Shown here piece after piece: positions 655 to 13,667 of a stretch of 64,000 nucleotides of DNA. Position 1 is the stretch's first letter, and every line of letters begins with the position of its first letter. Position numbers and translations under genes: made by a program. Source of the stretch: Algimonas porphyrae (lineage in GTDB: Bacteria > Pseudomonadota > Alphaproteobacteria > Caulobacterales > Maricaulaceae). The notes below the pieces were generated by a model. That model was not told where the DNA came from and ran no database searches. It worked only from the letters and a program-made list of their open reading frames with translations. The stretch is from positions 1,428,001-1,492,000 of the forward strand of contig NZ_CP163424.1 in the NCBI RefSeq assembly GCF_041429795.1. The letters run 5' to 3'.

Positions 655-1518
655 TCAGGCTGCGTCCATTCCGATATCGAAATTGGGTGCGCTGTGGGTC
701 AGCGCGCCGACACTGATGATGTCGACGCCCGTTTCGGCGATGCCGCGGACCGTATCGAGATTGACGCCCCCTGAAGCCTCGACGGTCAGGCGGTTCGTAT
801 CGAAGCTATGAATGATGTTCTGCGCCTCGCGGAGCGTGACGGGGTCCATATTGTCGAGCAGCACGACGTCCGGCTGATAGGGCAGGACGATTTTCAACTG
901 CGCGATTGTGTCCACTTCCACGCTGACGGTCGTCATATGATCGCGCGCTTCCATGACCGTGCTCAGCGCGGCGTGAATGCCGCCCGCCAGGGCGATATGA
1001 TTATCCTTGATCATGATCGCCGCAGCCAGGCTTTCGCGGTGCGCATAGCCTCCGCCCGCCAGAACGGCCTGCTTTTCCAGCGCGCGCAGCCCGGGCGTCG
1101 TCTTTCGGGTCGCGGCGATGCGCGTGCCTGTCCCGGCCACGGCCTCGACATAGGCGGCGGTCAGGGTCGCGATCCCGCTCATCCGACCGAGGAAATTCAA
1201 CGCCACACGTTCGGCAGACAGGAGCGAGCGGCTCGGCCCCTCGACGCGCGCGACGACCGTTCCCGGTACGACCAGCGTTCCGTCACCGGCCTCGATGATG
1301 AAATCTATGTCAGGGTCGACGCAGCGATAGGTCAGTTGGGCAGCCTGCATTCCGGCGATTACACCGGCGTCGCGGGCCCGCATAAGCAGTGAACCACTGG
1401 CCGACGCCGGGACAAGCAGGTTGGCGGACAGATCACCTGACTGTCCGAAATCCTCTTCCAGCGCTCGCCGGACGATGGGTTCGATGATGACGGAGGGCAG
1501 GGGTGGCAAATGCGACAT
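655..1518 (-). CDS. nadC: Nicotinate-nucleotide pyrophosphorylase (carboxylating)
   Basis: NadC (quinolinate phosphoribosyltransferase) makes nicotinate mononucleotide from quinolinate and PRPP in de novo NAD synthesis in the cytoplasm. The 287-residue product has the usual family length and motifs: ALEEDFGQSGDLSA near the N-terminus, LNFLGRMSGIATLT, the ATRKTTPGLR loop with the Arg/Lys residues that bind the phosphates, GGGYAHRESL, IMIKDNHI, EVDTIAQL, LLDNMDP and EASGGVNLDTVR. It starts 9 bases after the stop of the TetR gene on the same strand, so the two are probably co-transcribed. nadB lies nearby on the same strand but is separated by the opposite-strand DUF5367 gene; no nadA is seen in the window. 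Confidence 0.96.
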   Translation of the reverse strand: MSHLPPLPSVIIEPIVRRALEEDFGQSGDLSANLLVPASASGSLLMRARDAGVIAGMQAAQLTYRCVDPDIDFIIEAGDGTLVVPGTVVARVEGPSRSLLSAERVALNFLGRMSGIATLTAAYVEAVAGTGTRIAATRKTTPGLRALEKQAVLAGGGYAHRESLAAAIMIKDNHIALAGGIHAALSTVMEARDHMTTVSVEVDTIAQLKIVLPYQPDVVLLDNMDPVTLREAQNIIHSFDTNRLTVEASGGVNLDTVRGIAETGVDIISVGALTHSAPNFDIGMDAA

Positions 1519-6118: not shown

Positions 6119-7231
6119 ATGACAATCGAAGCCCCTCCGCAGACGCGGACGCTATTATCCATACAAGCCTTGCGCGGCGTGGCCGCCTTGCTCGTCGTGC
6201 TGTTCCACAGCGCCGAAATCTGGCGTGACATGTCGGGCGGTGCGGGGCTGGACGGGCTCTGGGATCGCGGCTGGGCCGGGGTTGATCTGTTTTTCGTGAT
6301 CAGTGGTTTCGTCATGGTCTGGGTCGCGGGGGAACGCGCGTCCGGCCTGCGCAGCGCCGGGCGGTTCCTGTTTGATCGCGCCACACGCGTTTATCCGCTC
6401 TGGTGGGTCTTCTGCGCGTTGATGGGGCTTTATTTCTGGGTCACCTACGGACAGCCCGCCACACCGGTGATATATGACGCGCAGACGGCCTGGGGGCAAT
6501 TCTTTGCCTCCATGGCCTTATGGCCGACCGAGGTGCAGCCCGTGCTGACCGTGGGCTGGACGCTGACCTTCGAGCTGGCCTTCTATGCGGTTTTCGCCTT
6601 GCTTTTGCTGCTACCTTCCCGGTTCCGGATGGGGGCGATCCTGATTTGGGGACTGGGCCTTGCGCTGATCTGGCTCTTGCGCCCGGACTCGCCTGCCTTG
6701 CCGGACAGCTGGCTGGGGGTCGTCATGAGCCCGCTCTGCCTCGAATTCGTATTTGGCGCGCTGGTGGCCTGGCTGGTGCAGCGATTTTCGATACCGCGAT
6801 CTGTCGGTCTGACCCTCTTCTATCTCGGGGCAATGGGATTTCTCGGTCTGATGATTGCGGGCGAGACAGTGGGCGGACTACCGGACATTGATAGCCGGGT
6901 CGCGACCTTCGGTCTGGCCGCCGCCGTCCTGCTCTGCGGGGTGGTCACGGTTGAACGCAATGGCGGGATTGTCGTGCTGCCAGCCCTGCGCGCAATCGGG
7001 GATGCGTCCTATACGCTCTATCTCAGCCACTTGCTTGTCATACTCGCCCTCAAGCGTGTCTGTGAGGCTGCTGGCATCCTGACTGCGCCGAGCCTGTCCG
7101 GGATGGCCGTCTTCATGGCGCTGGCGACATCAGCGAGCCTCATCGCGGCTCTGATCCTCTACCGCCTTCTGGAAAAGCCGCTTCTGACACTCAGCCGCGC
7201 ACTCCTGCCAAAGAGAAGGGATATGACATGA
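6119..7231 (+). CDS. OafA/NodX-type membrane acyltransferase
   Basis: A 370-residue polytopic membrane protein of the acyltransferase-3 family. Signs are IQALRGVAALLVVLFHSAEI at the first helix with the conserved R and H, VDLFFVISGFVMVW, RATRVYPLWW, then about ten hydrophobic helices, ending LYLSHLLVILALKR and a basic tail. Such proteins transfer acetyl or other acyl groups to extracytoplasmic sugars. It overlaps the next gene by four bases (ATGA), so the two are translationally coupled. Confidence 0.88.
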   Translation: MTIEAPPQTRTLLSIQALRGVAALLVVLFHSAEIWRDMSGGAGLDGLWDRGWAGVDLFFVISGFVMVWVAGERASGLRSAGRFLFDRATRVYPLWWVFCALMGLYFWVTYGQPATPVIYDAQTAWGQFFASMALWPTEVQPVLTVGWTLTFELAFYAVFALLLLLPSRFRMGAILIWGLGLALIWLLRPDSPALPDSWLGVVMSPLCLEFVFGALVAWLVQRFSIPRSVGLTLFYLGAMGFLGLMIAGETVGGLPDIDSRVATFGLAAAVLLCGVVTVERNGGIVVLPALRAIGDASYTLYLSHLLVILALKRVCEAAGILTAPSLSGMAVFMALATSASLIAALILYRLLEKPLLTLSRALLPKRRDMT

Positions 7232-7788
7232 TGAAACAATATCGGAATAGACGGGCCGCCATCGGGCTGCTCGCGGCCATGGCAATGACGGCTCTGTCGG
7301 CTTGCGCGTCCGTCGCGGCGGACAGACCAGAGCCGGATTCCAAGCTGAGCGCACCCGTCACGATCTTTCTGGTCCGCCACGCCGAGAAGCAGGGCGGCGA
7401 CGATCCGGCACTGACAGAGGGAGGGGCGATCCGGGCCGAAGCGCTGTCCGCTCTGCTCCGCGATGCCAATGTCGCGCATATCCATAGCAGCGACTATCGC
7501 CGCACGCGCGACACGGCGGCGCCACTGGCGGATCGGCTCGGACTGGCCGTGCGGCTCTATGATCCGCGTGACCTGCCCGGCATGGCGGAACGATTGCTTG
7601 CCAGCGAAGGCACGCATCTGGTCGTCGGGCACAGCAATACGACGCCGCAACTGACAGAACTGCTCGGCGGGGAGGGCGGCACGCCGATCGTCGAAGCGAC
7701 GGAATATGACCGTCTCTATCTGGTCAGGCGCGCGCCCGACGGCTCCATCAGCACGGTCTTGCTGCGCTACGGTGCGCCAACAGGCTGA
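7228..7788 (+). CDS. Lipoprotein of the histidine phosphatase (SixA-like) family
   Basis: A 186-residue protein with a lipoprotein signal (MAMTALSACAS) and a histidine-phosphatase core: FLVRHAEK with the phospho-accepting His, SSDYRRTRDTAAPLA with the second Arg, and VVGHSNTTPQL with the second His. It is short, like SixA and small phosphoglycerate-mutase-type proteins. Its envelope location makes a phosphohistidine-protein role in the cytoplasm unlikely; the substrate is unknown. It is translationally coupled to the acyltransferase upstream, so the pair may modify or trim a surface polymer, which is inference. Confidence 0.85.
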   Translation: MMKQYRNRRAAIGLLAAMAMTALSACASVAADRPEPDSKLSAPVTIFLVRHAEKQGGDDPALTEGGAIRAEALSALLRDANVAHIHSSDYRRTRDTAAPLADRLGLAVRLYDPRDLPGMAERLLASEGTHLVVGHSNTTPQLTELLGGEGGTPIVEATEYDRLYLVRRAPDGSISTVLLRYGAPTG

Positions 7789-7825
7789 CGCCCGCCGATC
7801 CGGCTTGCACCAACTCGCCGTTACG

Positions 7826-8057
7826 CGCATAGTCACATTATCCGAGGGGCACCGAAGCGGTCCGGTATCGTCGTCAGACGGGACCGGAGTTTTCGATTAT
7901 CAATCGAAAAGAGCGAAGGTGCCGCGCACGCTTGTGCGCGGGCTCGCGCGCAGCGCGGCCTGATGACACAAGCAAACGCGGCCCCAGACTCCGCCCACGG
8001 TCGAGACGCACCCTTTGAACTTGATCCCCGGCAAGGGGCGGAAGGACGGATTATGCG
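7826..8057 (+). promoter_or_regulatory. TPP (THI-box) riboswitch with long P3 insertion
   Basis: The conserved 3' half is clear: a GAGA turn at 8003-8006, ACCCTTTGAACTTGATC at 8010-8026, P5 as CCCC (8026-8029) and GGGG (8035-8038), and P4 as CTT/AAG, matching the canonical ACCC-GAACCTGATC element before a thiC gene. The 5' half is not adjacent. I find it about 140 bases upstream: AGGGG at 7845-7849 pairing with CCC (8011-8013) as P2, ACCG (7851-7854) pairing with CGGT (7998-8001) as P3, and a nine-base-pair closing helix P1, CGCATAGTC (7826-7834) with GATTATGCG (8049-8057). The P3 arm would then hold three hairpins at about 7861-7888, 7890-7910 and 7921-7959. The J2/3 bases differ from the usual TGC. 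A CCCC-TTT-GGGG hairpin at about 8060-8070 precedes the thiC start. Confidence 0.72.
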
Positions 8058-8089
8058 GCCCCTTTGGGGACGTGTGTCGTCCACACTGA

Positions 8090-9970
<1,881 letters not shown>

Positions 9971-12891: not shown

Positions 12892-13200
12892 ATGATGAAA
12901 CCAACATTGATAGCCATGGCCTCAGCTTTGCTGCTGAGCGCGTGTGCCAGCGTGGAAACGGCTGAGACGACGCAAACGGTCCAGACGGCTTCCGGCGAGA
13001 CCGTCATCAAGCCGCAGACCTTTTCCTCGACCGTCGTCGATGGTGACGGCGTCATCTGCAAATATCGCGACGTGACGGGGTCCAACTTCCGGCGCAAAAT
13101 GTGCGGCACTGCCGAAGAATGGGCCGCCATCGAGGAAGAGGCCAAAAAGGCCACGGACCGGATTCAGCGTCGCAACCGCGGATTCGAACCCAGCAATTAG
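12892..13200 (+). CDS. Small lipoprotein, tandem copy 1
   Basis: A 102-residue protein with a lipoprotein signal (ALLLSACAS) and a mature part ending in a conserved block: VICKYRDVTGSNFRRKMCGTAEEWAAI, seen in parts as ICKYRD, TGSNFRRKMC and TAEEW. Small alphaproteobacterial proteins with a C-x-TGS-x-C-x-EEW pattern are common, but no function is known to me. The two cysteines could form a disulfide outside the cytoplasm. An AAGGAG site at 12876-12881 supports the start. It is nearly identical to the next gene, so the pair is a recent tandem duplication. A strong hairpin follows it. Confidence 0.82.
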   Translation: MMKPTLIAMASALLLSACASVETAETTQTVQTASGETVIKPQTFSSTVVDGDGVICKYRDVTGSNFRRKMCGTAEEWAAIEEEAKKATDRIQRRNRGFEPSN

Positions 13201-13355: not shown

Positions 13356-13667
13356 ATGCCGAAACATATAATCGCCGCTCTTGGTACGACTTTGCTGCTG
13401 ACCGCCTGTGCCACGGTGGAAACAGCCGAGACGACAGAAACGGTGCAGACGGCGTCTGCGGAAAACGTCGTCAAGCCGCAAACCTTTTCCTCGACCGTGG
13501 TCGATGGGGACGGTGTGATCTGCAAATATCGCGATGTGACGGGGTCCAATTTCCGCCGCAAAATGTGTGGTACCGCCGAGGAATGGGCGGCCATCGAGGA
13601 AGAGGCGCGCAAGGCTGTCGAAAAGGTCCAGCGCCGCAATCGCGGGTTCGAGCCACCCAACCGATAG
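13356..13667 (+). CDS. Small lipoprotein, tandem copy 2
   Basis: A 103-residue paralogue of the gene at 12892. The lipoprotein signal (LLLTACAT), the ETAETTETVQTAS stretch and the block ICKYRD...TGSNFRRKMC...TAEEW are shared almost residue for residue; differences cluster in the first 20 residues and in the last 20. The upstream region also matches in its ribosome site (GAAGGAGACG at 13339-13348), which suggests that promoter and gene were copied together. Function unknown, envelope location expected. Confidence 0.82.
   Translation: MPKHIIAALGTTLLLTACATVETAETTETVQTASAENVVKPQTFSSTVVDGDGVICKYRDVTGSNFRRKMCGTAEEWAAIEEEARKAVEKVQRRNRGFEPPNR

Follow-up and report, generated by a model that had tools for sequence, protein, structure and literature searches.

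The leader of thiC in Algimonas porphyrae raises the question of whether two pieces of TPP riboswitch sequence that lie about 150 nt apart form a single aptamer and, if so, what the sequence between them is. The window that we analysed is a 64,000 nt stretch of the A. porphyrae genome (contig NZ_CP163424.1, positions 1,428,001 to 1,492,000). An acyltransferase gene (6119-7231; Pfam) and a histidine-phosphatase gene (7228-7788; PF00300) lie upstream of the leader, and the thiC ORF occupies 8102-9970 on the plus strand (PF01964, E 9.1e-184); thiC relatives are present in 34 of the 40 genomes searched. Between the phosphatase gene and thiC, in the 5' leader directly before this thiamine gene, the aptamer stands in two pieces, ATCCGAGGGGCACCG (7840-7854) and CGGTCGAGACGCACCCTTTGAACTTGATCCCCGGCAAGGGGCGGAAGGACGGAT (7998-8051). 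Both halves described by the original prediction are present, the 3' half at 8003-8051, with a sequence conserved in relatives, and the 5' half at 7840-7854. We conclude that 7840-8051 is very probably the aptamer of a TPP riboswitch before thiC, with a P3 arm that hosts an inserted, dispersed, REP-like four-stem element of ~95-110 nt, most likely tolerated. Binding of TPP and control of thiC by this switch are predictions from its sequence.

The helices of the aptamer, all on the plus strand, can be placed as follows. P1 pairs ATCCG (7840-7844) with CGGAT (8047-8051). The 5' strand of P2 (7845-7850) contributes A7845-G7848 and C7850, which pair with 8011-8014 and 8008 of the 3' strand (8008-8014). 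P3 starts with ACCG (7851-7854) opposite CGGT (7998-8001) and continues with GCGG (7857-7860) opposite CCGC (7991-7994), its 3' strand covering 7991-8001. P4 (8020-8022/8042-8044) and P5 (8026-8029/8035-8038) lie at 8020-8044, placed from the conserved 3' half and the fold. The unconstrained minimum free energy (MFE) structure of 7840-8051 contains every pair of P1 (5/5), P2 (5/5), P3 (4/4), P4 (3/3) and P5 (4/4), which is the canonical connectivity, with mean pair probabilities for P1-P5 that are modest, at 0.28-0.71 (0.37 for P2 and 0.28 for P3). The pairing of P2 and P3 across the gap is thus seen in the fold, as had been proposed. J3-2 (8002-8006) reads CGAGA, opening with C where the Rfam consensus, UGAGA, has U.

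The standard model does not see this switch. A search with RF00059 gave no TPP match at the gathering cut-off in the window, and none in 7700-8150 at E values up to 10. Our own model of the TPP 3' half, R2, was built from 14 sequences, the window sequence among them, and scores the 3' half of the window switch, itself one of those builders, at 69.4 bits. A compact TPP fold elsewhere in the genome, which the original prediction had named as evidence against an expanded switch, was not found: in the 3,169,281 bases of the window genome (G000; one contig), RF00059 has a single match, away from thiC, at 18.1 bits (E 0.70), and R2 finds one place only. Among 137 family genomes, RF00059 has matches in 115 (81 above the cut-off), and the matches listed span 88-132 nt; R2 has matches in 116, gaining G000, G006 and G017, which Rfam misses, and missing G137 and G141, which Rfam finds. 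The compact switches of G003, G015 and G007 score 50.9, 48.3 and 49.3 bits with RF00059, for which the cut-off is 54.3. A match to RF00059 is a detection criterion that is defeated by the 151-nt P3, not a biological feature.

Relatives carry both forms of the switch. G003, G015 and G007 have a compact switch with the same core directly before thiC, and in G003 and G007 the same phosphatase gene end, read by eye, lies upstream of it. Expanded switches, with the element at the same point, occur in five species of two genera, namely G000, G017 and G006, and G050 and G052 from another genus. When window positions 7800-8110 were used as a DNA query against 18 genus genomes, G017 matched at 80% over query positions 41-252, and G006 matched in two pieces, 5-126 at 69% and 198-251 at 91%. 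In G050 and G052 the insert is at the same point of a TPP switch of the thiC operon; there an acyltransferase gene comes first, and two genes separate the riboswitch from thiC. Of these two in G050, one is of metallo-beta-lactamase type and the other has no Pfam family. The five expanded switches have P3 arms of 151, 147, 113, 108 and 108 nt, as against 8-42 nt (30 leaders of a first set) or 14-30 nt (five further leaders) in the 35 other parsed relatives. The first set comprised 35 leaders, all parsed, from a list that we chose among the 116 genomes with an R2 match; for the second, 57 loci were tried and 29 parsed, giving five new leaders, with G050 and G052 outside the parsed 29. Because compact versions stand at the same place in relatives and four more species have the expanded form, the proposal of a TPP riboswitch with a long P3 insertion is supported.

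Gene content around the leader varies. By eye, the window, G003 and G007 have the phosphatase gene ahead of the riboswitch, G006 has it behind, and in G017 a different frame follows the riboswitch. A 24-codon frame (8053-8127) begins one base after P1 in the window and overlaps the thiC start, and longer frames in G006 and G017 seem, again by eye, to begin at the corresponding place. The thiC leader of G012 has a P3 arm of only 8 nt (GGGGCACCTAGGTTGAGA), too short for a normal hairpin, and still scores 40.4 bits with RF00059.

We considered whether the insertion might have broken the switch, such that the riboswitch is decaying and thiC has escaped control by TPP. The genome has no other TPP match above 18.1 bits, J3-2 deviates from the consensus, and the aptamer is not the free MFE structure in G050 and G052: the free MFE structures hold 17/17 aptamer pairs in G000 and G017, 16/17 in G006, 9/17 in G050 and 4/17 in G052. 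However, conservation of the core extends over five species and two genera, with the P1-P4 pairs kept (P5 lies outside that count) and four of the five P1 pairs identical across the five switches. The C that opens J3-2 is found in compact relatives too, and G006, G050 and G052 have UGAGA. Moreover, P3 across the insert is ACCG/CGGU in G000, G017, G006 and G050, and ACCA/UGGU in G052, a compensatory G-C to A-U change on both sides of the arm, albeit of one pair in one species. Decay is therefore quite improbable.

The closing helix differs from the one first proposed. A promoter-like pattern, TTGCAC-N17-CATAGT, spans 7805-7833 on the plus strand, its -35 box TTGCAC (7805-7810) lying 17 nt before a -10 box CATAGT (7828-7833). 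The corresponding pattern TTG-N16..18-[CT]A occurs in 30 of 40 parsed leaders (30/35 in the first set and 0/5 in the further ones), including 17/17 genus leaders and 5/5 of g19; the ten leaders without it belong to g23, g7 and g4. In the 30 leaders that have it, the pattern ends 4-10 nt before the conserved core. From this we infer a transcription start near 7840. The original prediction closed the whole region with a nine-pair helix between 7826-7834 (CGCATAGTC) and 8049-8057. These letters do pair, and only 1% of 200 flank shuffles do as well; when 7820-8101 is folded, on the premise of a transcript that starts upstream, the helix is present and is preferred to canonical P1. Nonetheless, CGCATAGTC covers the -10 box of a pattern common to all 17 genus leaders parsed and so is probably not transcribed. 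The 3' strand of the helix also runs into canonical P1, and in G017 and G006 the same flanks give at most four contiguous pairs, reached by 98% and 95% of shuffles. We set this helix aside as probably wrong; the likely closing helix is canonical P1, ATCCG/CGGAT (7840-7844/8047-8051). Loss of the distal pairing in relatives had been put forward as evidence against an expanded riboswitch. Such loss did occur, in G017 and G006, but it counts against the distal helix alone.

The promoter pattern also bears on the idea of two unrelated things, a remnant of a TPP switch and hairpins that are its neighbours by chance, with some other transcript running between the two halves. Rfam fails at this locus and the halves lie ~150 nt apart, as such a reading would have it, but each of the five expanded loci has the pattern upstream of the 5' half, relatives have compact switches at this very place, and P3 bounds the insert in five species. 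We consider this reading extremely improbable.

What, then, is the insert? Judged by its sequence, it belongs to a structured repeat that is dispersed in the genome, which was not seen in the earlier reading. We built a four-stem model, R1, of 96 positions from six chosen copies, excluding the window insert, and R1 finds a copy inside P3 at 7850-7958 on the plus strand (58.6 bits, E 6.5e-12 for the window). The closing helix of the element, H0, pairs GCACC (7849-7853) with GGTGC (7918-7922), and its 5' strand is shared with P2 and P3, such that the pairings are mutually exclusive. R1 places hairpins H1 (TCCGGT/ACCGGA) at 7861-7888 and H4 (CGCGC/GCGCG) at 7945-7957. H2, at 7890-7910, is the perfect nine-pair hairpin already noted in the original prediction, and has changes on both sides among copies. 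H3, at 7922-7941, is placed by the model, and a longer hairpin takes its place in the MFE structure of this copy. The rest of the P3 insert, 7959-7990, falls outside the assigned extent of the element. A second copy, at 571-664 on the minus strand (60.4 bits, E 2.5e-12), lies at the stop codon of nadC (655-1518, minus strand; Pfam QRPTase). Elsewhere in the window are two direct repeats of 265 nt each, 12926-13190 and 13390-13654, that are 83% identical.

Searched with a two-hairpin pattern, 7 of the 18 genus genomes yielded 14 rows between them, of which some list one place twice and some are probably due to chance (the reversed control gave 2). With R1, the window genome has 14 places at E <= 1, 12 of them at E <= 1.6e-5, and there are 12 places at E <= 1 in G006, 11 in G017, 14 in G007 and 5 in G012. 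Matches occur in 11 of 18 genus genomes; with stricter filters, they occur in 15 of 137 family genomes at E <= 0.01 and in 13 of 398 genomes drawn from the order at E <= 1e-4. The stems covary. In the six-copy alignment, 14 pairs are changed on both sides, versus 6.4 in shuffled alignments and at most 4 in slid ones. A 41-copy alignment, in which matches at E <= 0.001 from 32 sources of our choosing, the six builders included, were fitted to R1 and which leans towards the model, has 28 of 30 pairs altered in both bases, versus 19.9 for shuffled and 7-17 for slid alignments, and a covariation score of 0.511 (0.163 shuffled, 0.047-0.080 slid). An Rfam scan of ten loci with copies placed no family on the element; only a tRNA passed the threshold, with weak matches off the element, and for these ten loci we rejected a known RNA family.

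The dispersed copies often abut the ends of genes. For 19 of 30 copies (what is left of the 41 once the five in riboswitches, another five in tandem and a weak overlapping one are taken out), a same-strand ORF of at least 100 codons has its stop at +4 to +12 of the element, in every case at +6 to +10; the same holds for 1.7% of random positions drawn from these loci. The other 11 copies have no such ORF. No element follows nadC in the 11 other genus members with a readable nadC end, and the last nadC codons are alike in 11 genus members, so the coding end is native. H0 pairs the 5' flank of the element with a stretch inside it: the longest helix in any register, a measure that ignores the relatedness of the copies, averages 5.25 pairs for 32 copies versus 4.18 (sd 0.17) with shuffled partners, and 10 of the 32 copies reach 7 pairs versus 5.3% of cross pairs. 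Individual copies (e.g., L250:603-691 and L242:760-858) tend to have a closing helix that is complementary to the 5' flank of that same copy, often the last codons of the host gene. The window genome also has a tandem array of four copies (C1:3135848-3136269) with a period of ~109 nt.

In being dispersed hairpin repeats that form tandem clusters and overlap stop codons, these elements resemble REP elements, whose GTAG and CGTC superfamilies are described, in the available part of the source, as palindromes of 20-40 bp tagged with GTAG or CGTC (PMC3733652). By contrast, our element has four stems in ~95 nt; GTAG falls within the first 14 nt in 5 of 41 copies, and none of the 41 has CGTC there. 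At E <= 0.001, none of the 18 genus genomes has a match to the Y1 transposase family (PF01797), while 5 of 14 control genomes match; with GTAG as rare as this, we rejected a REP of RAYT type. Caulobacter intergenic repeats (CIR) are likewise alphaproteobacterial, structured and ~110 bp long, and carry GANTC and two long arms according to the portion of a review available to us (PMC2229807). On that description they are set apart from our element, which has four stems; GANTC occurs in only 4 of 41 copies, and on this ground we rejected identity with CIR.

The history of the insertion may have taken more than one path. In a thiC tree of 24 rows, G000, G017 and G006 form a group with support of 91/94, which falls short of what the tool takes as a firm branch; next to it stand the compact G007 and G012 (98/93), and all five are joined at 100/98. 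G050 and G052 (100/98) are placed elsewhere, near the compact G022, G001 and G004. Among the matches listed (the best eight per copy, the window-G052 pair not among them), the riboswitch copies are 0.66-0.86 identical to one another and 0.64-0.76 identical to dispersed copies, so that the ranges overlap. On these data, the element may have been inserted twice, or once long ago and later lost in some lineages, or it may have been transferred. It is rather unlikely that a dispersed element was captured at the same P3 point in two separate lineages and there added a folding-control domain, competing through its closing helix for the 5' strand.

It is fairly unlikely that the insert is a recruited regulatory domain, in which GCACC/GGTGC would form first during transcription and tie up the 5' strands of both P2 and P3, delaying or gating the folding of the aptamer. 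H0 is found in all five species and uses the riboswitch's own GCACC, and the one changed 5' base of G052 pairs in both P3 and H0. Folds forced to contain H0 lie only 3.1 (G000), 2.1 (G050) and 0.2 kcal/mol (G052) above aptamer-forced folds, and the nascent fold of G000 holds four of the five H0 pairs. On the other hand, the corresponding differences are 12.0 kcal/mol in G017 and 8.9 kcal/mol in G006, and the nascent MFE structures of the other four expanded species hold 0/5 H0 pairs; we thus rejected H0 as a general kinetic trap, since the nascent fold has it in G000 only. In the free MFE structure of the window switch, 0/5 H0 pairs are present and their mean pair probability is 0.22. The five core pairs of H0 are invariant in the five species, so there is no covariation, and dispersed copies have an H0 of their own, such that H0 may be merely inherited.

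We propose that the element most likely is a tolerated insertion, and we favour tolerance over tuning, although tuning through competition of the element's closing helix with P3 is possible. The element would sit on the distal side of P3, where length varies freely, and would keep its own fold. A candidate expression platform lies at 8078-8095 (plus strand), where an anti-SD GTCC (8079-8082) pairs with GGAC (8092-8095); alternatively, CGTCC (8078-8082) can take GGACG (8044-8048). Local folds in which GGACGG pairs with TCGTCC, or GTCC with the SD GGAC, correspond to a translational OFF design. The three whole-leader folds that we tried lie within 4.3 kcal/mol of one another, and two states do not show by themselves: without constraints, 7840-8110 folds with P1 absent and with SD and anti-SD already paired to each other, and forcing the alternative helix moves the SD into pairing with 7860-7863 and does not free it. 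The switching step is therefore drawn from proteobacterial thiC switches as they are generally known. Under the proposed scheme, transcription would start near 7840, TPP binding would let P1 form, and GTCC (8079-8082) would then pair with the SD GGAC (8092-8095), turning thiC translation off; without TPP, GGACG (8044-8048) would take the anti-SD instead.

The window switch shares P1-P5, the GAGA of J3-2 and the thiC context with the TPP (THI-element) riboswitch of RF00059, and differs from it in a 151-nt P3 that is mostly dispersed repeat, in the C at the start of J3-2, and in going undetected by RF00059. Longer P3 arms beside a conserved binding core have been described for the thiC switch of Klebsiella pneumoniae, where the extension is 24 nt (PMC12632268), and for eukaryotic TPP switches (PMC6414600); the available parts of these papers make no mention of a repeat origin, whereas the window P3 is mostly repeat. 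In a search of literature titles and abstracts, with subscription journals mostly outside its scope, we found no report of a dispersed repeat inside a TPP riboswitch. The element family, with four covarying stems in register with stop codons, deserves separate study. Given that the standard model loses expanded switches, three family genomes being regained with R2, catalogues may under-count expanded aptamers. A riboswitch arm that very probably has taken up a genomic repeat, with the ligand core conserved across several species, would be a natural expansion of a bacterial aptamer.
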